From an uncultured Clostridia bacterium (GTDB lineage Bacteria > Bacillota > Clostridia > Christensenellales > Pumilibacteraceae), in NCBI GenBank assembly GCA_947175195.1, contig CAMWLQ010000005.1:1-64000 (forward strand): DNA of 64,000 bases. Reading direction: 5' to 3'. The position numbers and the translations under genes are program-made. The notes beneath the pieces were generated by a model. That model did no database searches and was not told the DNA's origin. It saw only the letters and a list, made by a program, of their open reading frames with translations. Position 1 is the first letter of the stretch. Every line of letters begins with the position of its first letter. Below are positions 3,493 to 20,264 of this stretch, piece by piece.

Positions 3493-4290
3493 TTATTTAA
3501 CTGCTTGGGGCTTTTGCCCCGCTGTTCCGTTTTTGCCATGCAGCTTGCCAAACTCATCAAACACCAAGTTAATTAATCCTATTGAAATACGACAGTATCC
3601 GCCTTTACCACCCTTGCCGCCTGATCCGGCAACAAAATTTACGCTTTCATTATCGCTTGTGCATTTTCCGCATATCAATGCAGGGGAACCGTCACCCCCA
3701 TTACCACCGTTTGGACTGTCCGTAATTACGTAAAGCGCTAAAGGAATATCCGTGCTCCCTGCATCACCACCGTCGCCGCCGCGACCACCCTGTAATGTCA
3801 AATGCGCCTCCGGATCTACGCATTCAAAAACGACCTCTCCGCAACGAAGCGCGCATTGCCCGGGCGCACCATTCTTACCATACCAATTCGTCGGGAACGC
3901 CAATGCGCCGGTCGTACCGCCAGCTCCGTTAGAGCCGGATCCACCGATTACAACCGACTGTCCTTTGAATCTAACTGTAAGCGTGAACGAAGTATTTTCA
4001 CATAGAATTGCCGCCGAATTTTGCTTCGCCATAAAATTAGCATTGTCAAGCGTAAGTATCAAATCCTTTTCGCGCTCGGCAATTGTAATACATACACTGT
4101 ATAACAACTCGCCGTTGGGATTTCCCGTAACAACAACCTCATCAATATCATCCTCTACAAGGTAACTGCTGTTGCTTACCAATTTAATGTGTTGAACATT
4201 ATAACTATTGCACGCGCTAAGCATAAGTGCGCCGAGAACAATAGCTAAAGCTAAACCGATTTGTTTAATCAAAGCGTTTTTAATCTTCAT
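3493..4290 (-). CDS. Glycine-rich lipoprotein
   Basis: The 265-residue product begins with a lipoprotein signal peptide whose lipobox is LSAC at about residues 24-27, so it should be anchored to the outer face of the membrane. The second half is dominated by GG-containing tracts ('GGSGSNGAGG', 'GGRGGDGGDAG', 'GGNGGDGS', 'GGKGGKGG') broken by ordinary beta-rich pieces with several cysteines. This pattern resembles glycine-loop surface proteins rather than true collagen triplets. ATG 4290 has a GGAGGTGT site seven bases upstream. An in-frame ATG 36 bases earlier lacks a site and would spoil the signal peptide. The function is unknown, and it stands alone between two accessory blocks. Confidence 0.75.
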   Translation of the reverse strand: MKIKNALIKQIGLALAIVLGALMLSACNSYNVQHIKLVSNSSYLVEDDIDEVVVTGNPNGELLYSVCITIAEREKDLILTLDNANFMAKQNSAAILCENTSFTLTVRFKGQSVVIGGSGSNGAGGTTGALAFPTNWYGKNGAPGQCALRCGEVVFECVDPEAHLTLQGGRGGDGGDAGSTDIPLALYVITDSPNGGNGGDGSPALICGKCTSDNESVNFVAGSGGKGGKGGYCRISIGLINLVFDEFGKLHGKNGTAGQKPQAVK

Positions 4291-4427
4291 AATTACACCT
4301 CCGTGAGCTTGTATATATGGTAGCATATATACAATTCTTGTTTGGGGCGTCGTTTCAGCACAATAAAACAGCGACCGAGCTGTAAAACTTAATCGCTGTA
4401 AAGATAGAAATAATAGTAAAATTATTA

Positions 4428-7400
4428 TTAATCGTCTATTAAAATTACTTCGGCACTTCCATCATCTTCATGCCCAAAAAGTTTTTTAAAGTCAGTATAT
4501 AATCGTCGAGGCATAATAATTGTTTTCGGAACACATCCACAAAATGGTTCGCTATGTTCCCTGTCCCACTCCTCATCGAAAAGTAAAATTATTGGATCGT
4601 CCTCCCCATCTTCAACTATCGGGTCATTTGGTATTTCTACAATATCTTTTATACCACTACCTATTAAAATCTTAATTGCATTTTTACAATTATAAAAAGC
4701 GCTGTAACCTATGCTTGTCACACTATCTGGAATTTCTACATTTGTTAATTTTGTACAGCCATGAAATGCATTATCGCCAATAATTGTAACGCTATTCGGT
4801 ATTGCTATGCTTGTTAATCTACTACATCCCCGGAATGCGTATGCCCAAATACCTACGGTGCCATAACGTAATTCTACTGATGAAACCGGCTTTATCGCAC
4901 CTACAACCCACTTATCTAGATAACACACGCCGTTTTCAACTTGAAATAATTGTCTATTACTCCCCCGAAAAGTAAATTCTTCCCCATGCACTATTCTACT
5001 AGATATTTTAAGATGTGTTAACCCGCTACAGCCATCGAAAACATTATTTCCAACCCGCATAATATTGTCGGGCATCTCTATACTCGTTAAGCCACTGCAG
5101 CCTAAGAATGCGTAACTTGCGATGCCAGTTACACTATTGGGAATCTCTATGCTCGTCAAATTGCTACAACCTGAGAACGCACATTGACCAATAGCAGTTA
5201 CGCCCTCAGGTATCTTTATTTTCGTTAAAATTCTGCAATCAGCGAAGGCGTAATCTTCAATAGTGGTTACATTATATGGAATTCCATTTTCGCTAAGCAC
5301 AGAAATTACTACAATCCCTGACACGCAATCATCAACATCATCATTATCAATCGATATTTTCGTATTTCTAACATTCACTACCATCTCGTTAAAATCAGAA
5401 TATTCTCTTGAGATCAATTCGCCTGCATATTGCAAAACTTTATACTTTTCATCTCCATAAAGATCCATTACCATATTAACATCATCTAGATTAAACTCAT
5501 TTTTATACATTTTTTCAAGCGCTTGCTTTAGCATTAATGCCTGACAATACTCTTGATAAATCTCATTTGCCCAAGTGTATTTGTTGTCATCAATCTTTTT
5601 TAGAATGGATATCTCACAAAGTTTATCGCCTGTGTCTTCGAAATATTCGTTTAACTCATCATTCGTAAATTTATCCTGCATAGAATGCGCAACAAAATAT
5701 TCGAATATTCTTTCATATGTCTGCAACTTATCTTTTATATCTCTTAACTTTCTCTTTTCATTGGGCAATAGATCACTATTTTCCTTCATCAACATATAAA
5801 CATATTCTTCACTATCTTGTAAAGATGCTTGCCGCTTAACATACCTTACCTTAAAACAAATACTGAAGTACATATCGAGCAACTTGCCTGCTGTAATATC
5901 TTGCGATTGGATTTTTTCAAACACCGAGACATGTGTAAAAATATACAACATCATATTATTGCGTAGTAATTGAATCAGCGAAGGCGTAATTTCATTTTTA
6001 TTAAAATTATATTGAGTTAAGCAGTGTTCGATTTGATTGCCGCGCAATTCACAAACTGTAGCATAAAATACGGCATCACCAAATTCGCTATTTTTTTTGC
6101 TACTACTATAATTTTTCTCATCTTCTTTTTCAATTGTAGTAATAATCTTAGACCTTGAACCTATTACAATTCGAAAAGACTCTTTTTCAAGTACACCTTG
6201 GCATTCAGACACAAGCGAACACACACCGTTCCCTTGCTTATCTCTTAATTCGGTGTTGCTTTCATTTACGCCGTCTAATAATATTATTGGTTTATTGTTT
6301 GGCGATACCAATTTATCGATATTTAATCTATATTCGTTGCCAATATATTCTTTAATTGCATTATTCTCATTCTTCAACAGTTTGCAATCGATATACAAAC
6401 ACGGCACGCGATGTTTTCCACTTAAAAAATCAAGCCAAAATGAGCGGAGCGTTGTGGTCTTGCCTTGCCCACCTTCTGCGGTCAAAAACAAGCTCTTATC
6501 ATTTACTTTTTCGAGTGCTTGCTCAAGTGGCGATTTAGATATGGGATCCCCCTTATCATCAAATTTATATGCGAGCGGCTTGCGATTAGAGCCTAAATCA
6601 ATATCCGGAATCAAACGCCTATCAATTCTATCGTAACATCTCACATCATCATAATACAACTCATTTATTCTCTTTTCAACTAAATTGGCGAGTAACACTT
6701 TGCTTGCATCTACATATAGGTACTCCTTAAATCTATTACCAATCTCTTTATCCAATACGCAAAGGCTTTTATATATAAACCGCGCATGTCGCATTTCGGC
6801 AAAATTTAAAGTTTCCCTATCATCTCCCAACATTGTTCCTATTAACACTTCGCCACATCTCAATCTGTCAATCAATTCCTCAATGCGATTAATTGAATTG
6901 CCCAACGCGAATTCGGAACACTGAATTAAAATTGTTTTGATGTAGTTAAATACGTATAAACCGGCAATGCTTTTATCTGCACATAAAACATTATATAGCC
7001 GTTCAGCACTATCCGTTTTAAAAAAGAACTTTATCCAATTGAATGTTTCATTTTGACATAATGCAAATAAATTACTTTTTTCACGAGTGCAATTCCCATC
7101 AACAGAAAAAACGTCCAAAAGAGAGTAAATGAGCATTCTTGATAAAGCTGTCACATCAAAGCTTAACCACTGATCAATAGTTTGATTTTTGGAAACACGA
7201 TCTATATCGAAATAAAACAACGGCGTGGTTGCCATTCTTTTTGCATAACCATTATTAAAATCTTCTTCACTAATCCACGTGTCGAAATCTATTGTTTGAA
7301 CTATATCATAATCATAATCATAATTATCTACATTGCGATCTCGTATGATATAAAAATTATCGGGTTTGATATCACCATGGAAAACCTTGTTTGTATTCGC

Positions 7401-8087
7401 ATGGCAAAATTTTTGAACATTCTCAGATGTTTTTCTAATGAGCCTGATTCGATAGAGTAGCTCCTGCAGTTCTCGCCCGCTTGAATTAGGAGCAACATGC
7501 GATAACTTAAGATCCTCCTCAACTGTTACACCACTAAATGCGTTCGCAATATAAGCAAACCCATGTGAAGTCAACCTGATGCTTGGATCAATAAACTGTG
7601 GATTCTTGCTTTCAGCAACAACTGCGCCCCTCGATTTTTCAATATTATCTTTTTGTTTAATAAAGCGATGGAATCTTTCTAAGAATCTATCAGCCTGCAC
7701 TTCTGTAGCACGATTACTCAACCATACAAAATTGGGGGCGGTCTCATAATATGCATCCAAAACAATCTCTTCATATAAATCACGAGGACGAAAGAGTTTT
7801 ATAATATATTGCTTACACTCAACAGTTTTCGTTGCACGCAAACATATAGACGATGAACCTTCTCCAATACATTCAACATCGTCAAAGTCTCCATCTGTAT
7901 GGCTACTCGTGGAGTCGGTTTTTTTGTTAATACAGCTACTAATTATTTTACCTATTTTTGCCGCCTTGCTTTTGGCTGTATCTTTGGAATTATAGATATC
8001 TTCTATATTCATCATAACACTACGACAATCTACACCCAATAATTCCGTTATTCTGTTTGGGTTTGTATTATTTTCGCCAATTGGCAT
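4428..8087 (-). CDS. Kinase-NACHT/STAND-leucine-rich-repeat protein
   Basis: This is a 1219-residue multidomain protein. Residues about 70-330 look like a protein kinase: glycine loop 'IGEGSSS' (74-80), candidate beta-3 lysine K97, catalytic loop 'HGDIKPDN' (237-244, with D239 and N244) and a DFG-like 'DFD' at 267-269. Residues about 520-720 look like a NACHT/STAND NTPase: Walker A 'GGQGKTT' (539-545), Walker B 'IILLDGVNES' (601-610) and 'GSRSK' after it. A helical part follows, and then five to seven BspA-type (LRR_5) repeats from about residue 950 to 1130 of the form 'AF.GCS.LTSIEIPNSVT.I'. STAND proteins with sensor repeats and an effector domain act in bacterial immunity and signalling. 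Here the kinase would be the effector and the repeats the sensor, by inference. The ATG has AAGGAG five bases upstream. Base composition is AT-rich. Confidence 0.85.
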   Translation of the reverse strand: MPIGENNTNPNRITELLGVDCRSVMMNIEDIYNSKDTAKSKAAKIGKIISSCINKKTDSTSSHTDGDFDDVECIGEGSSSICLRATKTVECKQYIIKLFRPRDLYEEIVLDAYYETAPNFVWLSNRATEVQADRFLERFHRFIKQKDNIEKSRGAVVAESKNPQFIDPSIRLTSHGFAYIANAFSGVTVEEDLKLSHVAPNSSGRELQELLYRIRLIRKTSENVQKFCHANTNKVFHGDIKPDNFYIIRDRNVDNYDYDYDIVQTIDFDTWISEEDFNNGYAKRMATTPLFYFDIDRVSKNQTIDQWLSFDVTALSRMLIYSLLDVFSVDGNCTREKSNLFALCQNETFNWIKFFFKTDSAERLYNVLCADKSIAGLYVFNYIKTILIQCSEFALGNSINRIEELIDRLRCGEVLIGTMLGDDRETLNFAEMRHARFIYKSLCVLDKEIGNRFKEYLYVDASKVLLANLVEKRINELYYDDVRCYDRIDRRLIPDIDLGSNRKPLAYKFDDKGDPISKSPLEQALEKVNDKSLFLTAEGGQGKTTTLRSFWLDFLSGKHRVPCLYIDCKLLKNENNAIKEYIGNEYRLNIDKLVSPNNKPIILLDGVNESNTELRDKQGNGVCSLVSECQGVLEKESFRIVIGSRSKIITTIEKEDEKNYSSSKKNSEFGDAVFYATVCELRGNQIEHCLTQYNFNKNEITPSLIQLLRNNMMLYIFTHVSVFEKIQSQDITAGKLLDMYFSICFKVRYVKRQASLQDSEEYVYMLMKENSDLLPNEKRKLRDIKDKLQTYERIFEYFVAHSMQDKFTNDELNEYFEDTGDKLCEISILKKIDDNKYTWANEIYQEYCQALMLKQALEKMYKNEFNLDDVNMVMDLYGDEKYKVLQYAGELISREYSDFNEMVVNVRNTKISIDNDDVDDCVSGIVVISVLSENGIPYNVTTIEDYAFADCRILTKIKIPEGVTAIGQCAFSGCSNLTSIEIPNSVTGIASYAFLGCSGLTSIEMPDNIMRVGNNVFDGCSGLTHLKISSRIVHGEEFTFRGSNRQLFQVENGVCYLDKWVVGAIKPVSSVELRYGTVGIWAYAFRGCSRLTSIAIPNSVTIIGDNAFHGCTKLTNVEIPDSVTSIGYSAFYNCKNAIKILIGSGIKDIVEIPNDPIVEDGEDDPIILLFDEEWDREHSEPFCGCVPKTIIMPRRLYTDFKKLFGHEDDGSAEVILIDD

Positions 8088-8171: not shown

Positions 8172-9932
8172 TTATCCAGCAATATATTTATTGAACGTCT
8201 CAAAGGCTGACGAGGGATTATTCCCAATTTTCTTCTCGTAGTTTAATATCTCAACAATAAACCAATCGAATAAATCGCGTGGGCAATCTATACTTAGACG
8301 ACCGTTTGCAACGAGATGCGCATCAATCTCACGAAATCCCGCCTTAATCTCCTCTTCTTCACCACAAGGCAAATGGCTTAGTTCCCTATTAATATCCGAT
8401 AAAAAAGACTCTAACGAATGCGTTTCATATAAATCATCGCGAATGATTTCTCGATTCCCTTTTACTTCATAATCTTGATATTTTCTTTTCAAGATGCTGT
8501 AAATACATAGATATCTTAGTGAATTGTCAATAATAGACTTCGCCGTCTTTTGCACGCACTGAAGCGAAACCGTGGTCTTTCTTTCTTCCCTAGGCACACC
8601 CAATTCTTTCTCAAGATCTAAATCAACGCCGTAATCCAGTATTTTATATAATCCAAAAAGCCCGAGTTTTTCTATTAACAATTTTTGCAACGGTTTATAT
8701 TTGGATTCAAGATATTTCAATCGAATTTTTAAGTTGTTGATCTGTTCATTATTCTGCGGTTCTTCTTTCTCTAATTTTTCAATTCGTTTTTTATTTTTAA
8801 CATCTTCTTCGGTCAATTCTTTGATCTTTTCTTTATTAGTATCTTTTTGCTGCAATTCTACAACTTCTTTCTTTATCTCCTCCTGCCGTTTTTCTAACCA
8901 TTTCAATTCCCGTTCCTTATTTTCTAAACTATCAATTTCTCTATCTATCTTAATTTGTTCGGATATTCTATCACGTAAGCTATTCAAACTTTCTCCAACA
9001 TTATCATCTAAACTACGCGCAAGTTCCAATATTCTATTTTGTAAGTCTCTATAATCTTTGTAATCATTATTACTATCAGCTAAAACCTCTAAAACCCGCT
9101 TTAGTGAAGACCAGTGCCCAACAACCTTTTCTTCTGCCATGAAATCAGTACGATTATTATAAACGAATTCTAGAAAAGCGTTTTCATGCTCATCATTTGA
9201 ACGACAGTTTTCTATTATATCACGCGTGACATTCAAAATATCGTCTAAACCTCTCCTAATCGCCGCCGTTCTTGTCTTGGAAACATCTCGTTGCTTTGCA
9301 TCATTAGTTTTCTCTCCAACTGTTTTATCATCCCTATGTTTTAGTCGCAAACAAGCTTTTTGCAAAGACTGAAGCTGTTTTAACGAATAGCCATGCAAAA
9401 TAGCGTATGCTAAACTTATATGATAAATATTCCGCACATAAAATCCATATTTGCTAAGTTTTATATCTTCACCCGCTGAAAACACGAACTCGTTTAAATC
9501 GTCTAACGAACTAAATATACCATATCGCTTTTGTAAAGCGGAAATGATTAATATCCAATAATAAGGTTCATCCACTTTGCCGTCTTTCGGAATATCAAGA
9601 GGAATGGTTTTCCCCTTAAAATAATTCTTAAATGTGCTTCCATAAGTCTGAGATGCATCAAACGGCGTTCTAATTCCGTGACTACATTTTATGACAACAT
9701 CCTTTTGAGAGTCATAATACTGCGGTTCAAAGGCTTGCGCCCATGCGGTCAATATTAATTTTTCTTCATTTTGACCAAAACGAACTAAATCTTCTCTAAG
9801 CTTATCTAGCTCTCCTTTGCTAAGTATTTTTTTAAACCACCCGCGAAATCCGCCAGCCACGCGTTTTTCGTCATATTCACGATACTTATCCTCAATATAC
9901 CTAATCCATTCATTATAATTGCTGTAACACAT
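8172..9932 (-). CDS. Hypothetical coiled-coil protein (586 aa), neighbour of kinase-NACHT gene
   Basis: I do not recognise a family. The first 200 residues are globular. Residues about 310-420 are almost purely Glu/Lys/Leu/Ile-rich and should form a long coiled coil. A globular C-terminus of about 150 residues follows. No membrane segments or signal peptide are visible. ATG 9932 has AGGAG six bases upstream and an excellent promoter just before it; an in-frame start 36 bases upstream falls inside the -10 region. The gene ends 84 bases before the kinase-NACHT-LRR gene in the same direction, so the two may form one transcription unit. A role as partner, substrate or regulator of the kinase is inference only. 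Confidence 0.75.
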   Translation of the reverse strand: MCYSNYNEWIRYIEDKYREYDEKRVAGGFRGWFKKILSKGELDKLREDLVRFGQNEEKLILTAWAQAFEPQYYDSQKDVVIKCSHGIRTPFDASQTYGSTFKNYFKGKTIPLDIPKDGKVDEPYYWILIISALQKRYGIFSSLDDLNEFVFSAGEDIKLSKYGFYVRNIYHISLAYAILHGYSLKQLQSLQKACLRLKHRDDKTVGEKTNDAKQRDVSKTRTAAIRRGLDDILNVTRDIIENCRSNDEHENAFLEFVYNNRTDFMAEEKVVGHWSSLKRVLEVLADSNNDYKDYRDLQNRILELARSLDDNVGESLNSLRDRISEQIKIDREIDSLENKERELKWLEKRQEEIKKEVVELQQKDTNKEKIKELTEEDVKNKKRIEKLEKEEPQNNEQINNLKIRLKYLESKYKPLQKLLIEKLGLFGLYKILDYGVDLDLEKELGVPREERKTTVSLQCVQKTAKSIIDNSLRYLCIYSILKRKYQDYEVKGNREIIRDDLYETHSLESFLSDINRELSHLPCGEEEEIKAGFREIDAHLVANGRLSIDCPRDLFDWFIVEILNYEKKIGNNPSSAFETFNKYIAG

Positions 9933-9958: not shown

Positions 9959-9987
9959 AATATACCATTATTTCATTATAAAGTCAA
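9959..9987 (-). promoter_or_regulatory. Sigma-70 promoter of the coiled-coil/kinase-NACHT pair
   Basis: The minus strand reads TTGACT (9982-9987), 17 bases, TATATT (9959-9964). It lies 27 bases upstream of the ATG of the coiled-coil gene. Confidence 0.75.
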
Positions 9988-10154: not shown

Positions 10155-10198
10155 AATAGCCCGAATGTCTTTTTTACAGTAAAGTCATTCGGGCTATT
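10155..10198 (-). terminator. Terminator after restriction-modification operon
   Basis: The 13-base arms AATAGCCCGAATG and CATTCGGGCTATT enclose an 18-base loop, and a T-rich run follows on the minus strand. It is downstream of the last methyltransferase gene. Apart from this and the promoter, the stretch 9990-10286 shows no further feature. Confidence 0.7.
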
Positions 10199-10286: not shown

Positions 10287-11237
10287 TCACAGTTTTGTTT
10301 CTAAGAACACCTTCATAATTTCTCGAGCTATTCGCTCCACAACGGGGACACAAACAGTGTTCCCGCATTGCTTATATGCACTATTTAATGATATACCCTT
10401 AAACTTAAATTCCTTAGGGAATCCTTGGAGTGCTAAGCATTCCATTGGCGTTATCTTACGAATCCCAAAGTCATCCCTAACTATTGGAACGCGGTCGGGA
10501 TATGTACCCATATTAGCGGTCAGCGTAGGACAAATGTAGTTCTTGCGCTCTACTACTCCGCGATCCTCAATTTTATATAATGAATATTTATCGGTCACAA
10601 TCCGCTGTAAATCATCATAGTAAAAAGAATTTGCAGTGTAGTAATAACAATCGTCATGCTTAATCCGTCTATCGATAATATCATTTAATTGCACAGTGCG
10701 CTTTATTGGTTCGGGATATGTAAATTGCTGACACTTCTCTAAATTCAAAAAAGCCAAAATAAAAATTCGCCTACGTTGCTGTGGCACATTACCATAGTCT
10801 TTCGCGTCTAATACTTTATACCGAATATAGTAACCCAACTCTACAAGCGCATTGTGTATTATATTAAATGTTCGTCCTTCATCATGTTCCATAAGGTTAG
10901 GAACATTTTCCAAAAAAACTATGGGCGGACGTTTGGTCTCTAATATCCTAACTATTTCAAAAAATAGATTCCCTCTTGGGTCATCAAATCCTTTCTTTCT
11001 ACCGGCTATCGAAAACGGTTGGCATGGAAATCCCGCAGCCAACACGTCAAAATCAGGAATAGAATCCGCTTCAACAGTCTTAATGTCCGCTTCAACTAAA
11101 TAATCGTCGCCAAAGTTTGTTCTATATGTAGTAGCGGCACCATGATCAAACTCATTTGCCCACACGACATCAAACCCGACATTTTTAAATCCAAGATCGA
11201 TACCGCCTATTCCACTGAACAAACTTGCTACTTTCAT
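10287..11237 (-). CDS. DNA (cytosine-5-)-methyltransferase, third in the RM operon
   Basis: The 316-residue enzyme has the m5C methyltransferase motifs in order: motif I 'FSGIGGIDLG' at the N-terminus for AdoMet, motif IV 'GFPCQPFS' with the catalytic Cys, motif VI 'ENV', motif VIII 'QQRRR', a short target-recognition region and motif X 'GNTVCVPV'. It transfers a methyl group to C5 of cytosine in a specific site. It follows mcrC by 28 bases and so seems part of the same operon. It is clearly a different subfamily from the two methyltransferases upstream of mcrB. Its short target-recognition region suggests a small site. Whether it protects against McrBC or modifies another sequence cannot be read from the sequence. 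Confidence 0.9.
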   Translation of the reverse strand: MKVASLFSGIGGIDLGFKNVGFDVVWANEFDHGAATTYRTNFGDDYLVEADIKTVEADSIPDFDVLAAGFPCQPFSIAGRKKGFDDPRGNLFFEIVRILETKRPPIVFLENVPNLMEHDEGRTFNIIHNALVELGYYIRYKVLDAKDYGNVPQQRRRIFILAFLNLEKCQQFTYPEPIKRTVQLNDIIDRRIKHDDCYYYTANSFYYDDLQRIVTDKYSLYKIEDRGVVERKNYICPTLTANMGTYPDRVPIVRDDFGIRKITPMECLALQGFPKEFKFKGISLNSAYKQCGNTVCVPVVERIAREIMKVFLETKL

Positions 11238-11265: not shown

Positions 11266-12675
11266 TTACTGAAACAAAGACAATAATACATTTTTAAGAT
11301 TGTCTTTTGTTGAATCATCCCCCTCTTCAAAAACGAATGGTAGTCTTACGGCATATATTTCCACGCAGCCTTCCGCATCATCTATTTTGACTGGTTTTTT
11401 CATAATTGCCGGATACGGCTCTATTTCCTCGTTTCGACATTGCGGATATAATAAAAACACTTTATCCACTCCACGCGACACGGCATAGGAAACAACTTGA
11501 TACAAGTCGCCGCTACTGACCTCTTTTGTAATATCATGCAAAAAATTAGAATTATCGGCGAACCGCGAAATCATCTTATACTTGGTATCAAGAATAAATA
11601 TCTTATCACGATACTCTAACAAAATATCATGACGCATTTCAAATGCATGTCCAAACTGCTTATCTCCAAGCGTTATACTACCCACTAGATATGCGTCGGA
11701 TGCCTGTGCCTTTATATTTGCTTCGCATCCAAATGCGTGCTGCAAATAACCACAAATAAAGCCCTCAAACAACAAGTTGGCCGGAAAAAGAAAACAAAAT
11801 GAATCATGCGTATCTATAGAATAGTCCGTCGTTCTATTCAAAAGAAACATTTTACTCATGCTTAACACGATTTTATATCGATTTTGCATTTTATTAAGCT
11901 GCACCTTATCGCAATCGTGCGGCACACAACGCATATCGGATACATCGCCCAATTTCATCAAAAGCCCGCGAATAAGCTTTTGATTTTCGACGCTCGTCTT
12001 TTGATTATTATATAGCATAACCAACGTACACTTGATTATCCTATTCAATAGATTGTCAAATTCGTATGTAGAGTATTCACAGCGGAACTTATCGTGTATA
12101 CCACTCGGATATTTTTTTGTTATATAATCTTTAATGTCGAGTTTTCCGCGCACCATAGGTAAATCTTCTATCCTATCCTCATAACGATAATATAGACCAT
12201 TATCCATCGCGGCCTTTACATATCGCACATATATAGAAATAAATAGCGAAAGAAGATTATCGGAAGCCTCAAGCCCTGACGATATATTTATATATGGGTA
12301 ATCAACTTTTGAAATATACTCGAGCCATTTCACTAAATTATGCAATAAGTGTTTAGAATCCAAACTACTAAGGTCGTCTTTACCTTTGTGAGTCCTAAAC
12401 ACTTTCGGGAAAATATTAAATTGGTGCCCCTTGTATGCAATTGTTCCGATATAACCCTTGGTCTTAAGCCCCATATATTCCGCCGGCACCAAAAACTGCT
12501 GACGGCTCTCAACATCGCCGTCATCATAAAAAATCGAACGCTGTTCCCAATTGAACTGCAAAAACTCCATAAACTCTTTCATAGAGTTTTCGTCTCGCAA
12601 ATCTATAGGAAGCTCGGAGTTACGGATCAGTTGATTTTCATAACGATTAAGCGTCGCGCTACTGTTAGTCGCCAT
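11266..12675 (-). CDS. mcrC: McrC-like restriction subunit
   Basis: The 469-residue protein matches the McrC family in layout: an N-terminal region that contacts the McrB motor, then a PD-(D/E)xK nuclease core near residues 350-380 with 'RHDILLEY...' followed by 'FILDTKYK', which supplies the acidic and lysine residues. It would cut DNA when assembled with the McrB motor. Its ATG overlaps the mcrB stop by one base (TAATG), which shows translational coupling. In LlaJI-type systems the equivalent is R2. The AT-rich composition matches the rest of the island. Confidence 0.85.
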   Translation of the reverse strand: MATNSSATLNRYENQLIRNSELPIDLRDENSMKEFMEFLQFNWEQRSIFYDDGDVESRQQFLVPAEYMGLKTKGYIGTIAYKGHQFNIFPKVFRTHKGKDDLSSLDSKHLLHNLVKWLEYISKVDYPYINISSGLEASDNLLSLFISIYVRYVKAAMDNGLYYRYEDRIEDLPMVRGKLDIKDYITKKYPSGIHDKFRCEYSTYEFDNLLNRIIKCTLVMLYNNQKTSVENQKLIRGLLMKLGDVSDMRCVPHDCDKVQLNKMQNRYKIVLSMSKMFLLNRTTDYSIDTHDSFCFLFPANLLFEGFICGYLQHAFGCEANIKAQASDAYLVGSITLGDKQFGHAFEMRHDILLEYRDKIFILDTKYKMISRFADNSNFLHDITKEVSSGDLYQVVSYAVSRGVDKVFLLYPQCRNEEIEPYPAIMKKPVKIDDAEGCVEIYAVRLPFVFEEGDDSTKDNLKNVLLSLFQ

Positions 12676-14858
12676 TATTTAACCCTAATTCTTCCATGTT
12701 TGTTCGTATCGTCTATCTTAACTGCCGTGCCCGTCAAAACCTTGTTAACAACCTCTTCAACCTTTTTAGTTTGGTCGTAAAAATATTCATACAGCAACGG
12801 TATAATTTTGCGGTTCATAATCACTGCCAAGTCGTTCTCGCTCTTGTTAATAAAGTATGCGTGCCCTATAAGCAAATCCGAACTATCTAAACGCGCGCGA
12901 AGTTCTTTGTTTAATGCGTCTAAAACATTCCGCAATGTCGTATCGCCCACAAATGACGAGTTCGGCGATACTTCAATAAAGTCAAACCTGCGTCTAAGAG
13001 CGGTGTCGATTAAAGCAATGGATTTATCGGCCGAGTTCATCGTCCCGATTATGTAAAGGTTATTTGGAACCGCAAACTCGCCACCGCCCGGAAGCTTCAA
13101 GCACATTTGGTTTTCTTCACCCCAACGTTTATCTTCCTCTATCAAAGTTATTAACTCGCCGAAAATCTTGGAAATGTTTCCGCGATTAATCTCATCAATA
13201 ATTATAACGTAATTATTTTCTTTATCTGTAATCGCCTTTTCCGCCAACATTTTAAATATGCCGTTCTTCGGCACGAAATTCATTACGCCGTCTTTAGATT
13301 CCGGACGCAGCCCTTGAATGAAATCTTCATATCCGTAATTTTGATGGAACGTCGTGAACACGATTTGTCCATTTTTCACGAGCGCCCGATACTTATCAAC
13401 AAGCCGTGCATATTCGCTTGCGGGAACTTCTTGGCGCGGCTCGCGATTTTCGATAGCCGCAACGGCATACTCCGTGGTAGAATATGTTTTGCCCGTCCCC
13501 GGCGGACCGTAAAGGATTAAGTTTAACTCATTAATTTGATTTGCAGCTGTTCTTTTGGTTCTTACGATAGATGAAATGTCCAACGGCTTGACTACAACAC
13601 CTGACTGCGAATAATACACATCCACTTCGGCAAGAAATTTAATAAAATCATCAAACAGTTTTTTCAACTCGTCGTTAGGCTCTTTGCCGTCAAACAACCC
13701 CAGCGCTTTGACGGTATATTCATTTCCATACTTTTCGGACATTGTTTCGGCAAAGCATGCAGCGCTTTCGTCGGTGTAAAAGAGATCGATATATAATCCG
13801 ACAACCGTATTGGTATCCTTCTCGAAAATCGGGCGTATATTCCTCGACTTATAATTAATATAATTGGTACGCGGCGAACGCGTATTCATCGGGTTAAAAT
13901 TGCAATCGAGTTCAAAGCCGTTATATTCTCGCCACTGCGCATATAATTTACGTAATTTTGCCGTATCTTTATAGCCTTGACCGAACGCTCTTTCACCTTG
14001 CTCAACGCCATTGTTAATATTAAGTTGCTTTACAAACCATTCAAGCAACTTTTTGAATTTTATATATTCTTCTTCATTGTTATCGTCAACGCAATCTTCC
14101 GCTATTTGCGGTTTACTCTCCCACAAAATATCAGGCGACATTTCAATACCGGCTTTCACCGCATCAAGCAAATTATCGCCGGCATACCTTGAATCGTTAA
14201 GCATGGCGCTTACGTTAATGTGATTATTTTTTAAAAGCGGGGCATACAAAATACCAAATGAACAAGCAGCGATTTGCTTACTTTTTCCATTCTTTATTTC
14301 AACATCCATGTGACTATTGAAAATAGATACGGCGGCATCAACTCCACATTTACTAGAATATGCCATAATTTCACTCCTCCAATTTTCTATAAGATTTACA
14401 AATAGTGTGTATTCTCCTGTTTGCGATTTTTCGATTCGCAAATTTGCAATATTAGCTATTAGGGTGCGTCTAAAAAGATATACCGAGTAAATATTATCTG
14501 ATAACTTTAAATAGCGGTCTGGATATCGATAAGAAATTAAAATATACCGTTCATCTTCACGCTTCGACAAAAAATATTGTTTGCATTTAGATAGCACGTC
14601 TAATGGACCAAAATATAGATGTTTAAACTTCCGAGCAATCTCCTCTACGTCATCTAAATACTGAAAAAATGAAGCGGAATCAATCTTACACTTATGCTCG
14701 CCTGTTATAAACGCGGCCACCTTCCGTTTCTCGCTATCGGCATCTCTTATATAAAAACTATTTGTACACCGTTCTATCCACCTCCACCGTAAATTCTCTC
14801 CACAATCACTGGAGGGGATCACGCCTTCAAGCGTTTTATCGTCTATAAATTTAAGCAT
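12675..14858 (-). CDS. mcrB: McrB-like AAA+ GTPase/motor subunit
   Basis: The 727-residue protein has a long N-terminal region (about 440 residues) likely involved in DNA recognition, then the McrB-type AAA+ module: Walker A 'GPPGTGKT' at 451-458, Walker B 'IIIDEINRG' at about 552-560 and the family signature 'MNSADKSIALID' near 607, where E. coli McrB has MNTADRS. It is expected to hydrolyse GTP or ATP and drive translocation for the McrC nuclease. The ATG has GGAGG six bases upstream and overlaps the second methyltransferase gene by eight bases. In LlaJI the equivalent is R1. Confidence 0.88.
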   Translation of the reverse strand: MLKFIDDKTLEGVIPSSDCGENLRWRWIERCTNSFYIRDADSEKRKVAAFITGEHKCKIDSASFFQYLDDVEEIARKFKHLYFGPLDVLSKCKQYFLSKREDERYILISYRYPDRYLKLSDNIYSVYLFRRTLIANIANLRIEKSQTGEYTLFVNLIENWRSEIMAYSSKCGVDAAVSIFNSHMDVEIKNGKSKQIAACSFGILYAPLLKNNHINVSAMLNDSRYAGDNLLDAVKAGIEMSPDILWESKPQIAEDCVDDNNEEEYIKFKKLLEWFVKQLNINNGVEQGERAFGQGYKDTAKLRKLYAQWREYNGFELDCNFNPMNTRSPRTNYINYKSRNIRPIFEKDTNTVVGLYIDLFYTDESAACFAETMSEKYGNEYTVKALGLFDGKEPNDELKKLFDDFIKFLAEVDVYYSQSGVVVKPLDISSIVRTKRTAANQINELNLILYGPPGTGKTYSTTEYAVAAIENREPRQEVPASEYARLVDKYRALVKNGQIVFTTFHQNYGYEDFIQGLRPESKDGVMNFVPKNGIFKMLAEKAITDKENNYVIIIDEINRGNISKIFGELITLIEEDKRWGEENQMCLKLPGGGEFAVPNNLYIIGTMNSADKSIALIDTALRRRFDFIEVSPNSSFVGDTTLRNVLDALNKELRARLDSSDLLIGHAYFINKSENDLAVIMNRKIIPLLYEYFYDQTKKVEEVVNKVLTGTAVKIDDTNKHGRIRVK

Positions 14859-15975
14859 TTTTACCTCCGTAAAGTTTATAACTTTTGTTAATTGCTTTCA
14901 GTACGGCAATCATCACGTCTACCACAATGGAATTGCCTGCTTGTTTATACATTTGAGCGCGAGATACGACTTGCTTAAAATCGTCAGTAAAGCCCATTAA
15001 CCGCAACGCCTCACGCTCCGACAGCATTCGTATTCGCCCATTTACAGTATAATAATTATCTACGCCCGCTCGGTGGCGGTTGCCCATTGTTTTGAGTAAC
15101 GTACGAGCTACGGGCAAATCTATCTTTATTGGCGTAGAGAATGTTTTTGTACCTGTGCACATTACATAATTTTTCAGCTTAGGCGTCAGGAAATATTTTT
15201 CGTCTATCTCGCCGGGCATATTTTCCGCAACTACATTCCCATCTAACGACATAAAATGCCCCTCGGCACAGCTCTCTATTAAGAAATCTTGAGCCTTATA
15301 TTTTAACTCAATCGGCTGCGGCGGGAATTGTAGCGATTCATGCGGAACATCCTTGCGTATCCCTATTACAAACAAGCGCCTACGGGTTTGCGGAATCCCA
15401 TAATCACTCGCATTAAGCACATCGAATTTAATATCATAGTTTAGTTTGTCGAACACACTTTTAATAACCGTCCAGGTTTTCCCCTTATCATGTTGCAACA
15501 TGTTGCGCACATTTTCGTATATAAAAACCTTGGGCTGAATTTCCTCAACTAAACGACCGAACTCATAAAACAATGTACCGCGCGTGTCGTCAAGTCCTGC
15601 TTCAAAGCCAACGGAAGAAAAGCTTTGACACGGGCTTCCGCCGACAAATAAATCCACCTGTCCATAAAAATCTCGCCCATCAAGCAAGCATACGTCTTGG
15701 AAGAACATGCCGTCTTTAACGTCATAATTTGCCTTATAAGATTCTTCCATGTAATTTTTGCATTTGGTTGCCGTCGCATAAAGCTTAGCCACGTAATCTC
15801 TTTTTTCAATAGGCGAACTCAATGACTTTACTATCGGCATTTCACGCACGTAATCGATATTTACTTCGCGCTCGCCGTTATCGCATGCAAACACAATCTC
15901 ATGCTCGACGCCCATTCGCTTCAGAGCAAACTCGATCGCCCCAATACCACTAAATACAGTTGCTACTTTCAACAT
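14851..15975 (-). CDS. DNA (cytosine-5-)-methyltransferase M2
   Basis: The 374-residue enzyme carries motif I 'FSGIGAIEFAL', motif IV 'GGSPCQSFSS' with the catalytic Cys, motif VI 'YENVRN', motif VIII 'QTRRRLFVIG' and motif X 'GNSIVVDVM'. It is a close paralogue of the next upstream gene: both share 'HEIVFACDNGERE' and the same spacing of motifs. The target-recognition region differs, as expected if the two modify different strands of one asymmetric site, as M1 and M2 of LlaJI do. It overlaps both neighbours by a few bases, so the operon is tightly coupled. Confidence 0.9.
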   Translation of the reverse strand: MLKVATVFSGIGAIEFALKRMGVEHEIVFACDNGEREVNIDYVREMPIVKSLSSPIEKRDYVAKLYATATKCKNYMEESYKANYDVKDGMFFQDVCLLDGRDFYGQVDLFVGGSPCQSFSSVGFEAGLDDTRGTLFYEFGRLVEEIQPKVFIYENVRNMLQHDKGKTWTVIKSVFDKLNYDIKFDVLNASDYGIPQTRRRLFVIGIRKDVPHESLQFPPQPIELKYKAQDFLIESCAEGHFMSLDGNVVAENMPGEIDEKYFLTPKLKNYVMCTGTKTFSTPIKIDLPVARTLLKTMGNRHRAGVDNYYTVNGRIRMLSEREALRLMGFTDDFKQVVSRAQMYKQAGNSIVVDVMIAVLKAINKSYKLYGGKNA

Positions 15976-17057
15976 TGCAATAACCTCGCTCTACTTAGCT
16001 CGGCAATGATAGCTTCTAACACATTAACGACGATAGAATTACCTGCCTGCCGCCAAGCGGTTGTGTCATTTACAACGATTTTGTAATCGTCGTTAAATCC
16101 CATCAAACGAAAGCATTCTCGGGGCGTAAGCTGTCTTGTGACACCAATTTCGCCGTTATATTCTCCCACATACGCGCGTTCCAATATTTCGGGAGTATGA
16201 CGATTGTGATTCAAAGGCTCAAATCTAAAATCCCCGTTCCAATTAAATTGCTGATTAGCCTTTTGGCACATCATGATTGTTCCGTTAACTTTTGCACGAT
16301 TAAAATATATCGGATTGGTTACAAACTCAAACCCCTTTTTCCCGAGATAATATTTAGCGGGAACTGCATCTTCCAAATAGTTTTCCAAAACAGTATCCAA
16401 ATTCACCGTTTGCGGAGTTGATATTGTATTTTCATTTTGGGTTCCAACCACAAACAACCGTTTTCTCTCTTGCGGAATTCCGTAATTCTTGGCATCTAAT
16501 TTATGTACTTTGATATCATATCCCAATGATTGAAAAACATTATCGATTGTCGCCCAAGTGCGTCCTTTATCGTGCGTAAGCATTCCGAGAACGTTTTCGT
16601 AAATAAAAACTTTAGGCTGACACTCTTTAACGATACGTGCATAGTCATAAAACAATGTGCCGCGCGTATCTTCCAGCCCCCCACGCTTACCTATAACAGA
16701 AAAACTTTGGCACGGACTTCCGCCAACCAACAAATCAATTTTTTCGTCTTGATACACCGTACCGTCAAGCAATCTTACGTCTTGATAAAAATGTCCTTCT
16801 CTAACATCGAAATTAGCGCAATATTGTTTTTGCATGAGGTTTTCTTTTTTGGATTTCTCTTCATATATGCGCGCAATATAATCGTTTTTTTGAGCAACGC
16901 TCATGCTTTTCGTTTCATTCTTAATAGCTTCGATATCTATGTCTATCTCGCGTTCACCGTTATCACAAGCAAAAACTATTTCATGAGGTATGTGCATTTT
17001 AAGGAGCGCCTCTTCTATTGCTCCCACTCCACTAAACAATGTAGCTAATTTTATCAT
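15969..17057 (-). CDS. DNA (cytosine-5-)-methyltransferase M1
   Basis: The 362-residue enzyme has motif I 'FSGVGAIEEAL', motif IV 'GGSPCQSFSVIG', motif VI 'ENVLGM', motif VIII 'QERKRLFVVG', a target-recognition region and motif X 'GNSIVVNVL'. It is the paralogue of the following gene and probably the partner that modifies the opposite strand of the same site. Its ATG overlaps the regulator's stop by four bases (ATGA). Having the methyltransferases first in the operon lets modification be made before or with restriction. The recognition sequence is not predictable from sequence alone. Confidence 0.9.
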   Translation of the reverse strand: MIKLATLFSGVGAIEEALLKMHIPHEIVFACDNGEREIDIDIEAIKNETKSMSVAQKNDYIARIYEEKSKKENLMQKQYCANFDVREGHFYQDVRLLDGTVYQDEKIDLLVGGSPCQSFSVIGKRGGLEDTRGTLFYDYARIVKECQPKVFIYENVLGMLTHDKGRTWATIDNVFQSLGYDIKVHKLDAKNYGIPQERKRLFVVGTQNENTISTPQTVNLDTVLENYLEDAVPAKYYLGKKGFEFVTNPIYFNRAKVNGTIMMCQKANQQFNWNGDFRFEPLNHNRHTPEILERAYVGEYNGEIGVTRQLTPRECFRLMGFNDDYKIVVNDTTAWRQAGNSIVVNVLEAIIAELSRARLLQC

Positions 17058-17308: not shown

Positions 17309-17386
17309 GATTTATTCTGTAAAACCAAAAATTTAACCTGTTAAAGATATATAACAAATCTCACATTCATAGCACCAACACCGAAA

Positions 17387-17604
17387 CAGTTCAAGTCTAC
17401 CAAGGCGAGATTTTTTGTACAACTGAGTTAGAAGTTAGTTTAACCAAAAATAGTTTTTGTTTTTTCATTAAAAAATGACTGTACGAACACATACGCGAAC
17501 GGATAATTGGCTGTTTGATTGTAAATTCGGGCGAAAAACGGCTGTTTTACGTCTCAAAAACGAAAAAAGAAGGTCTATAAGCAAACTACTTATAGACCCA
17601 CTGA
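17387..17604. repeat. Degenerate repeat copy A
   Basis: This non-coding stretch is similar to 19834-20052. Shared blocks in the same order are 'CAGTTCAAGTC..CC.AGGCGAG', 'CAACTGAGTTAGA', 'TGACTGTACGAACACATA' (here) or 'TGGCTGTACGAACACATA' (copy B), 'GGCGAAAAACGG' or 'GGCGAAAACGG', and a terminal hairpin (here GGTCTATAAG and CTTATAGACC, 17573-17599). In copy B the hairpin is the terminator of tRNA-Arg; here no tRNA remains. The rest of 17309-17733 holds two short related pieces ('TTGTACAAAATAACACTTTT' and a variant) and no gene I can support. Confidence 0.65.
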
Positions 17605-19729: not shown

Positions 19730-19833
19730 GCATTTTATGCCACATTTATAGAATATGTGCGAATATTTTTATTCTTATTGTTCATAATATTGCACTAGTA
19801 AATTAAACGTTATGCACGTATAAAACAGTCCAA

Positions 19834-20052
19834 CAGTTCAAGTCCGCCCAGGCGAGTCTTTTTGTCCAACTGAGTTAGAGGTTTGTTGTACAAAAAACAC
19901 TTTTGTTTTTGGCAATAATAATTGGCTGTACGAACACATAATTACGCTGCCGTTAGTCGCCGAAGGACAAATTTCGTGGCGAAAACGGATATTTTACTCC
20001 AAAATATGAAAAAAGTTGGTCGATGTGATAGTGACATATCGACCAACTGAAC
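19834..20052. repeat. Degenerate repeat copy B, adjoining tRNA-Arg
   Basis: This is the second copy of the repeat described at 17387-17604. It ends against the 3' end of tRNA-Arg and includes that tRNA's terminator hairpin. The two copies bracket the DUF2089/DUF4238 pair, as a duplication or insertion would leave. Confidence 0.65.
20008..20047 (-). terminator. Terminator of tRNA-Arg
   Basis: Arms GTTGGTCGATGTG (20015-20027) and CATATCGACCAAC (20035-20047) form a 13-base stem with one mismatch, followed on the minus strand by a T-run (20008-20014). Confidence 0.75.
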
Positions 20053-20129
20053 TGGTACACCCGACAAGATTCGAACTTGCGACCCTCAGAATCGGAATCT
20101 GATACTCTATCCAACTGAGCTACGGGTGC
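20053..20129 (-). tRNA. tRNA-Arg (anticodon CCG)
   Basis: The 77-base sequence folds as a standard cloverleaf. The acceptor arms are GCACCCG and CGGGTGT, the D-arm is 'AGCTCAGTTGGATAGAGT', the anticodon stem TCAGA/TCTGA encloses loop TTCCGAT with anticodon CCG, the T-loop is TTCGAAT and the CCA end is encoded. The accessory island lies on its 3' side, which is where integrating elements usually insert. Confidence 0.93.
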
Positions 20130-20264
20130 GGATTGATTATTTATTTGTTTGTTGTGGCATTTGGCATAATCGTCACCCGACACTGACAACTGAGCTACGG
20201 GTGCATATTAACTTACTTTATTTGTTTGGCGTTGTGTTTGGTATAATCGTCACCTGACACTGAC
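20111..20264 (-). repeat. Tandem duplication of tRNA-Arg 5' end plus leader
   Basis: Two units of about 76 bases (20111-20186 and 20187-20264) follow each other. Each begins on the plus strand with 'CAACTGAGCTACGGGTGC', the reverse of the first 18 tRNA bases, and ends with 'ATAATCGTCACC.GACACTGA' (C or T at the variable base). The second unit therefore carries only a 5' fragment of the tRNA gene, upstream of the intact one in the transcript. The remaining bases up to 20356 hold the promoter only. Confidence 0.8.

Follow-up and report, generated by a model that had tools for sequence, protein, structure and literature searches.

The locus described here lies in a 64,000-nucleotide (nt) stretch of DNA, hereafter the window, from an uncultured Clostridia bacterium of the family Pumilibacteraceae (GenBank assembly GCA_947175195.1, contig CAMWLQ010000005.1, positions 1 to 64,000). 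A preliminary description made from the letters alone had proposed that the gene at 4428..8087 encodes a kinase-NACHT-leucine-rich repeat (LRR) protein that may act as a single-chain defense system. That open reading frame, on the minus strand like the window genes, domains, motifs, and signals given below with coordinates, encodes 1219 amino acids (aa) from an ATG with a ribosome-binding site recognized by eye. From the N terminus, the protein carries a divergent protein-kinase domain (aa ~69-400; 6888..7883), placed by hhalign and a profile search of PDB sequences; a STAND nucleoside triphosphatase (NTPase) core (aa ~516-720; 5928..6542); a segment of inferred fold, presumed to be the helical part of the STAND module (aa 721-925; 5313..5927); and a BspA-type LRR sensor region recognized by LRR_5 (aa ~926-1160; 4608..5312). 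The proposed order of kinase, NACHT-like STAND domain, and BspA-type LRR is therefore borne out by profile, profile-profile, and motif evidence. Directly upstream on the same strand is a gene for a protein of ~586 aa with a charged central segment (8172..9932), which we call the partner; its reading frame extends to 9968, and its likely start is an ATG at 9932 with a ribosome-binding site, again by eye.

The preliminary description had overlooked both this co-oriented gene and the fact that the genome holds the entire unit twice. In the second copy (contig C5), the kinase protein is encoded at 80276-83863 and the partner at 83923-85389, with identities to the window proteins of about 36% over aa 1-925 and about 32-33%, respectively. 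A third member was found in a metagenome-assembled genome (MAG), "uncultured Bacilli bacterium isolate Lapin-020" (L016, CANQWZ010000008.1), where the partner occupies 8553-9848 and the kinase gene runs from 9851 to the contig end (about 29% and about 31% identity to the window proteins, respectively). This MAG and the window genome are only distantly related, with 42% identity between their ThiI proteins. In all three members, a partner homologue lies immediately upstream of the kinase gene, with intergenic gaps of 84, 59, and 2 nt, so that the term single-chain had to be abandoned for a two-gene unit. The partner had no family match below an E value of 0.3 in Pfam, 0.05 in NCBIfam, or 0.01 in PADLOC and no PDB match to E 1. 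Its best PHROGs matches were tail tape-measure proteins (6.5e-5), which is probably due to its charged, coil-like middle. A candidate promoter (TTGACT-17-TATATT, in which a TG precedes the second hexamer; 9959..9987) and a candidate terminator 3' of the kinase gene (4368..4383) came from scans of the region in which promoter-like sites were not clearly above shuffles (34 versus 28.7, standard deviation 5.1) and terminator-like sites were not above chance (4 versus 4.2). An 18-nt repeat within the kinase gene (5237-5254 and 5973-5990) was dismissed as chance because its halves fall in unrelated protein segments.

Because the kinase and NTPase labels were both below threshold in Pfam, each domain was tested separately by profile-profile comparison. 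The Pkinase model scored 18.5, 23.1, and 18.7 bits in the three homologues against a cut-off of 31.7 (for the window protein, E 0.02 with the whole protein and 1.5e-3 with the domain alone). We compared the kinase alignment of the three members with one built from 12 Pkinase proteins of related genomes, which were those of 25 Pkinase loci (L070-L094) that passed a motif filter, the other 13 being dropped. The two aligned with 97.9% in 132 columns that reach from the glycine loop as far as the catalytic loop, and all 10 column-shuffled controls gave 0.6% or less; when the run was made more global, the value was 98.5% in 247 columns. Taken singly, the 12 proteins gave 73.8 to 95.6%, and cross-controls (the kinase alignment with the STAND set; the STAND or partner alignment with the kinase set) stayed below 0.5%. 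A three-member kinase profile found 256 matches to E 1 among PDB sequences (best E 4.8e-4), and the best 60 of the 256 are kinase-family entries by name, including GCN2, PKR, casein kinases, PknB, IRE1, and CASK, although many of the kinase matches span the catalytic loop only. Membership in the aminoglycoside phosphotransferase (APH) group received no support, in that the single APH domain tried, from the same genome, gave 0.6% and no APH family appeared in Pfam to E 1. Thus, the proposed N-terminal kinase, below threshold in Pfam, held up by profile-profile comparison.

The residues of this domain agree with that assignment. The window protein has G77 within GEGSSS; a candidate ATP-binding lysine, K97, within IIKLF (7797..7799), which aligns to the VAIK-type lysine; the catalytic loop H237-G-D239-I-K241-P-D-N244 (HGDIKPDN, aa 237-244; 7356..7379); and D267-F-D269, a DFD in place of DFG (aa 267-269; 7281..7289). 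The candidate catalytic lysine, loop, and DFD motif named in the preliminary description are thus all present, and K97, E115, D239, K241, N244, and D267 are invariant in the three members, with the assignment of E115 as the helix-C glutamate uncertain in a region that is gapped in the hhalign alignment. None of the three has a canonical DFG (DFD, DFD, and DYD), and the catalytic-loop histidine is present in two and replaced by cysteine in the Bacilli member. Over the whole set of 24 positions checked, 21 are identical in all three homologues, the exceptions being H237 and F268, which are replaced by Cys and Tyr, respectively, in one homologue each, and G75, which is not a conserved position. 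The fold homology and the retained catalytic Lys, Asp, Lys, Asn, and metal-binding Asp are those expected of a Hanks-type kinase. Because these five residues are kept in three divergent members, catalysis appears to have been selected for, and we regard the domain as an atypical protein kinase that is probably active.

We then considered the NTPase. Its motifs in the window protein are a Walker A GGQGKTT (aa 539-545; 6453..6473), in which G539, G540, G542, K543, and T544 are kept in all three members; LLDGVNES (aa 603-610), within a Walker B region ending in DGVNE (aa 601-609; 6261..6287), in which D605, G606, N608, and E609 are kept; and GSRS (aa 643-646). All three members retain Walker A, the DGxNE Walker B, and a GSRS/TSRS stretch. 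The Walker A, hhhhDGxNE Walker B, and SR motifs are those of a STAND NTPase, with a helical or winged-helix part that is putative and was judged by sequence. The Pfam NACHT model (PF05729) scored 13.5 bits against a cut-off of 26.7, and a search of the genome with it at E 0.001 did not return the locus. The nSTAND3 model, the one that came nearest, gave E 1.2e-4 with the whole window protein and 1.5e-5 (25.1 bits, cut-off 27.2) with the domain alone; since the same model has matches at E 0.001 in 81 of 81 genomes, it is unspecific at such values, and its match says little beyond P-loop/STAND. When the STAND alignment was compared with five NACHT/STAND domains (L020 and four of six STAND-like loci, the remaining two, L025 and L028, being nearly duplicates of L001), hhalign gave 98.4%, largely through L020, a STAND-WD40 protein that the family profile itself had picked up and that probably accounts for much of that value. 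Singly, the five gave 98.7% (L020), 80.5% (L022), 44.9% (L002), 15.7% (L033), and 13.1% (L001); L022 and L033 are the two above the Pfam NACHT cut-off, and the 44.9 and 13.1% values belong to STAND domains of the same genome. Given the low PF05729 score, the unspecific nSTAND3 model, and a profile-profile result that leans on one relative, we prefer the label NACHT-like STAND; of the proposed NACHT-type NTPase, the STAND motifs and the profile-profile likeness stand, and the Pfam family assignment does not. The STAND core is the best-conserved part of the protein, with identities of 49, 41, and 34% in the three pairs, compared with 36, 31, and 31% for the kinase, 25, 27, and 32% for the linker, and 18, 21, and 12% for the N-terminal extension; the segment at aa 721-925 is 32 and 30% identical to the two homologues.

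The C terminus had been read as BspA-type LRRs, and LRR_5 (PF13306) matches the window protein with E 2.8e-50, the best stretch being aa 939-1043. The model is above its cut-off in all three members (169.9, 38.9, and 88.5 bits), and each thus has the C-terminal LRR expected of a bacterial nucleotide-binding LRR (NLR) protein of the effector-STAND-LRR type. Seven AFxxC-type repeats occur in the window protein and three before the contig end in the Bacilli protein; the second copy lacks AFxxC-pattern repeats and still scores 38.9 bits. The second copy also ends differently, in a tail unrelated to LRRs whose last ~80 residues resemble the C terminus of a TraG-like protein encoded three genes downstream (L004:619-4206 against L005:14002-16152; 42% over 77 aa, with E 2e-14 when seven sequences were compared). 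Homologous ends are thus shared by two otherwise unrelated proteins, the second copy and the TraG-like coupling protein, and no additional copy of the tail was found in the other loci examined. An exchanged sensor end would be compatible with the data from these three sequences.

Next, we asked how widely the unit occurs, using genome samples (151, 398, and 391) that overlap. It was found in 1 of 151 relatives, its own genome, and in none of 19 congeners, some of which are 76-90% complete. The kinase-STAND profile and the partner profile each matched 1 of 398 genomes of the phylum, again its own. In the class, 2 of 391 genomes gave a match, the second through the STAND domain only. That second match (G708) was not counted as a member, as the protein carries WD40 repeats and, by look, a helix-turn-helix and gave no kinase match. 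Two other classes gave 0 of 254 and 0 of 3 genomes. On the Bacilli side, 149 genomes were searched with a marker gene, and none was closely related to the MAG (best identity, 47%). In the genome_contigs collection, whose pattern prefilter can miss relatives, a two-row alignment returned 1 of 173 stretches, the confirmed Bacilli locus, and single-protein patterns returned no relatives among 64 stretches. Viral contigs held no relatives in sets of 51, 130, 37, 80, and 12 stretches, nor did plasmid and phage collections. The two-gene unit thus appears, from these searches, to be rare and accessory.

The window copy has the surroundings of an accessory element. Both genes have a G+C content of 0.35, compared with 0.46 on the left and 0.52 on the right. 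The low-GC stretch spans roughly 4 to 20 kb and ends at a tRNA-Arg gene (20053..20129). The restriction-modification operon that the preliminary description placed beside the gene is present, in the form of a C5 cytosine methyltransferase (10287..11237; PF00145, E 3.5e-90), a McrC-like protein (11266..12675; PF10117, E 1.6e-61), a McrB-like protein (12675..14858; AAA_5, E 6.2e-18), and two further C5 cytosine methyltransferases (14851..17057; PF00145, E 4.6e-65 and 6e-69). The McrB model PRK11331 matches the McrB-like protein with E 7.9e-41 and 140 bits, under its cut-off of 637. From 11266 to 17057, the McrC-like, McrB-like, and tandem methyltransferase genes are close-packed, with the third methyltransferase behind, an arrangement that we take to be reminiscent of LlaJI-type restriction-modification. 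Between this operon and the kinase/partner pair sits an 18-nt inverted repeat followed by a T-rich tract (10155..10198), which is a candidate terminator. Farther along the stretch, a 109-nt direct repeat (17385-17493 and 19832-19940, 81% identical) flanks DUF4238 and DUF2089 genes, and its copies may mark where a small insertion begins and ends; a segment of the tRNA-Arg gene recurs just outside the gene (20112-20134 and 20187-20209, 23 nt, 91% identical). Downstream of the unit, 3493-4326 encodes a lipoprotein-like glycine-rich protein with an LSAC lipobox by look and a G+C content of 0.46, and this protein had no family match in Pfam, NCBIfam, or PADLOC.

We compared the unit with known systems. 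Like the candidate, bNACHT/Avs-like immune proteins are built as effector, STAND NTPase, and C-terminal sensor, and PMC12169576 describes an LRR sensor in some bacterial NACHT proteins and calls those with LRRs bona fide bacterial NLRs; the candidate differs in having a kinase as its effector, an NTPase below the Pfam NACHT cut-off, and a conserved upstream partner. Kaur et al. 2021 (PMC8195603) list an S/T/Y-kinase among effectors that occur together with an FGS domain and an NTPase of the NACHT, MNS, or nSTAND1 type; the candidate shares the kinase effector, NTPase, and recognition domain and differs in its BspA-type LRR in place of the lectin-like FGS sensor and in its partner gene. Protein kinase, NACHT, and nSTAND1 are also named among the domains of diversity-generating retroelement target proteins in a figure legend of PMC10907252. 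A kinase-STAND-BspA LRR protein with this partner was not found in the open-licence literature, a scope outside which most subscription papers fall. The claim of novelty is therefore narrowed: kinase effectors on STAND modules (PMC8195603) and bacterial NACHT-LRR proteins (PMC12169576) are published, and what may be new is the kinase-STAND-BspA combination with an unannotated partner.

Kinase-containing systems resembled the unit only in part. Partial matches, located mostly in the kinase part, were to Mad6 of MADS in the window protein (2.1e-5), to PD-T4-6 (4.8e-7) and MkoA of Mokosh (0.0038) in the second copy, and to MkoA in the Bacilli protein (4.5e-7), with no full-length match and with other domains and a partner that differ. 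Mokosh consists of the MkoA kinase with a helicase and companion genes; in the window, neither the kinase protein nor its partner matched a helicase family to E 1, and the MkoA matches are partial. For MADS, whose Mad1-8 gene set was inferred from model names, nine scanned proteins gave weak partial mad6/mad8 matches (for one methyltransferase, among the best 25 of 65 matches; two methyltransferases lay outside the PADLOC scan). A congener locus (L095:5777-14893, G002) has a protein kinase of 505 aa, a helicase-like protein of 1066 aa, and two more genes in a row and is Mokosh-like by look; it was rejected as the same system, its kinase match being 3.6%. PknK of mycobacteria, which we take to be a regulatory kinase joined to a MalT-like STAND module, shares the joining of a kinase to a STAND-class module and differs in the type of module, in its regulatory role, and in being without an LRR. 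The same genome also encodes a TIR-STAND-BspA LRR protein (L009:1020-5441, minus strand; 1473 aa; LRR_5 E 9.4e-137 in four stretches), which has in common with the candidate a STAND domain and BspA-type LRR, with TIR in the place of the kinase and a distant STAND domain (hhalign 44.9%, single sequence), as well as a TIR-NACHT-like-TPR protein that ends in an aminoglycoside-phosphotransferase-type domain (L008:1122-4964, minus strand; 1280 aa). STAND parts similar to those of the latter occur in congeners (L025 and L028). Different effectors are thus found on such sensors in this one genome.

The reading that we favor is a cytosolic, two-protein, NLR-type sensor-kinase immune unit, to which we give a probability of about one-half. 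A defense role is the likeliest one for the unit on the grounds of its architecture, island position, and rarity. Its effector-STAND-sensor order is that of known immune STAND proteins (PMC12169576), and the unit is accessory, low in GC, beside a restriction-type operon and a tRNA gene, absent from 19 of 19 congeners, and present in a distant genome. The C-terminal repeats would bind an invader-derived or damage-derived protein, upon which the STAND domain, as is inferred from its class, would swap ADP for ATP and oligomerize. The clustered N-terminal kinase domains might then be switched on by proximity and phosphorylate the co-encoded partner, an essential host protein, or both, and arrest of the infected cell would be the outcome. 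Because it is the neighbor kept in all three members, the partner is the first candidate substrate or co-effector.

Several observations weigh against this reading. There are only three members, the kinase and STAND domains both score under their Pfam cut-offs, and no PADLOC model fits the whole protein, the partial matches lying mostly in the kinase part. The LRR part, expected to be the sensor, is not the fastest-diverging one (27, 36, and 21% identity in the three pairs). The second copy has SbcCD-like genes, by look, on one side and a ClpP-like protease and the TraG-like coupling protein on the other, with the nearest restriction enzyme gene (HaeIII-type) ~12 kb away, and the visible upstream flank of the Bacilli copy holds core-type genes by look, the other flank being off the contig. 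The preliminary description had held that homologues in core gene contexts would speak against defense, and this applies in part, through the visible Bacilli flank. The island evidence is thus good for the window copy, mixed for the second, and negative on the visible side for the Bacilli copy.

The same observations bear on other readings, of which a nonimmune regulator is the most credible, if unlikely. Here, a STAND kinase would sense a metabolic or stress signal and phosphorylate a regulator, like PknK, one of the regulatory kinase-STAND fusions that are known, and the Bacilli homologue does come after core-type genes; however, the unit is rare and missing from every congener examined, the window copy lies in a low-GC stretch beside restriction-type genes, and one genome holds two diverged copies. 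Nearly as plausible, and likewise unlikely, is that the partner is the true effector or toxin and the kinase-STAND protein its sensor and on-switch, releasing it by phosphorylation or complex formation. The partner's fixed place directly upstream on the same strand at short distances (84, 59, and 2 nt) and its divergence, about equal to that of the kinase protein (partner identities of 33 and 29%), suit such a role, but no family match points to an enzyme, and a scaffold or substrate would fit equally well.

We consider it improbable that the kinase domain is a binding module and not an enzyme. PMC7159879 reports that most kinase domains of some ternary conflict systems have disrupted catalytic residues, and in our proteins DFG is replaced by DFD or DYD and the catalytic-loop His is Cys in one member; nevertheless, the catalytic Asp, Lys, and Asn, the metal-binding Asp, and the beta3 Lys are intact in all three, as is a tentatively assigned candidate for the helix-C Glu. 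It is very improbable that the protein is a BspA-type adhesin or host-interaction protein that is exposed at the surface or secreted. BspA-type LRRs are common in surface proteins, and the preliminary description had mentioned them as surface modules; a cell surface protein and the choline binding protein PcpA are among the PDB matches to the LRR part, and a single hydrophobic stretch occurs in the second copy (2.2 near aa 977). Against this, a hydropathy scan for a secretion signal or membrane anchor found no hydrophobic N terminus in any of the three, hydropathy is low in two (the best 19-residue value in the window protein is 1.24), and the protein carries intracellular ATP-using domains, so that the hint of a surface location was set aside.

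Within the immune-unit reading, we tentatively put forward, and hold with less than even confidence, a more specific form: STAND oligomers triggered through the LRR may serve as a platform for the kinases, making the unit a bacterial equivalent of receptor-kinase immunity, and phosphorylation of an undescribed partner family may execute cell arrest. The partner is an unannotated protein open to direct testing, and the two diverged copies in one genome, with their differently built sensor ends, naturally lend themselves to a comparison of trigger specificity. Of the bacterial STAND effectors that have been tested, most are destructive, with targets such as DNA, NAD+, or membranes. If this form is true, a bacterial NLR that carries a phosphorylating effector and has a dedicated partner would have a signaling output instead of demolition.

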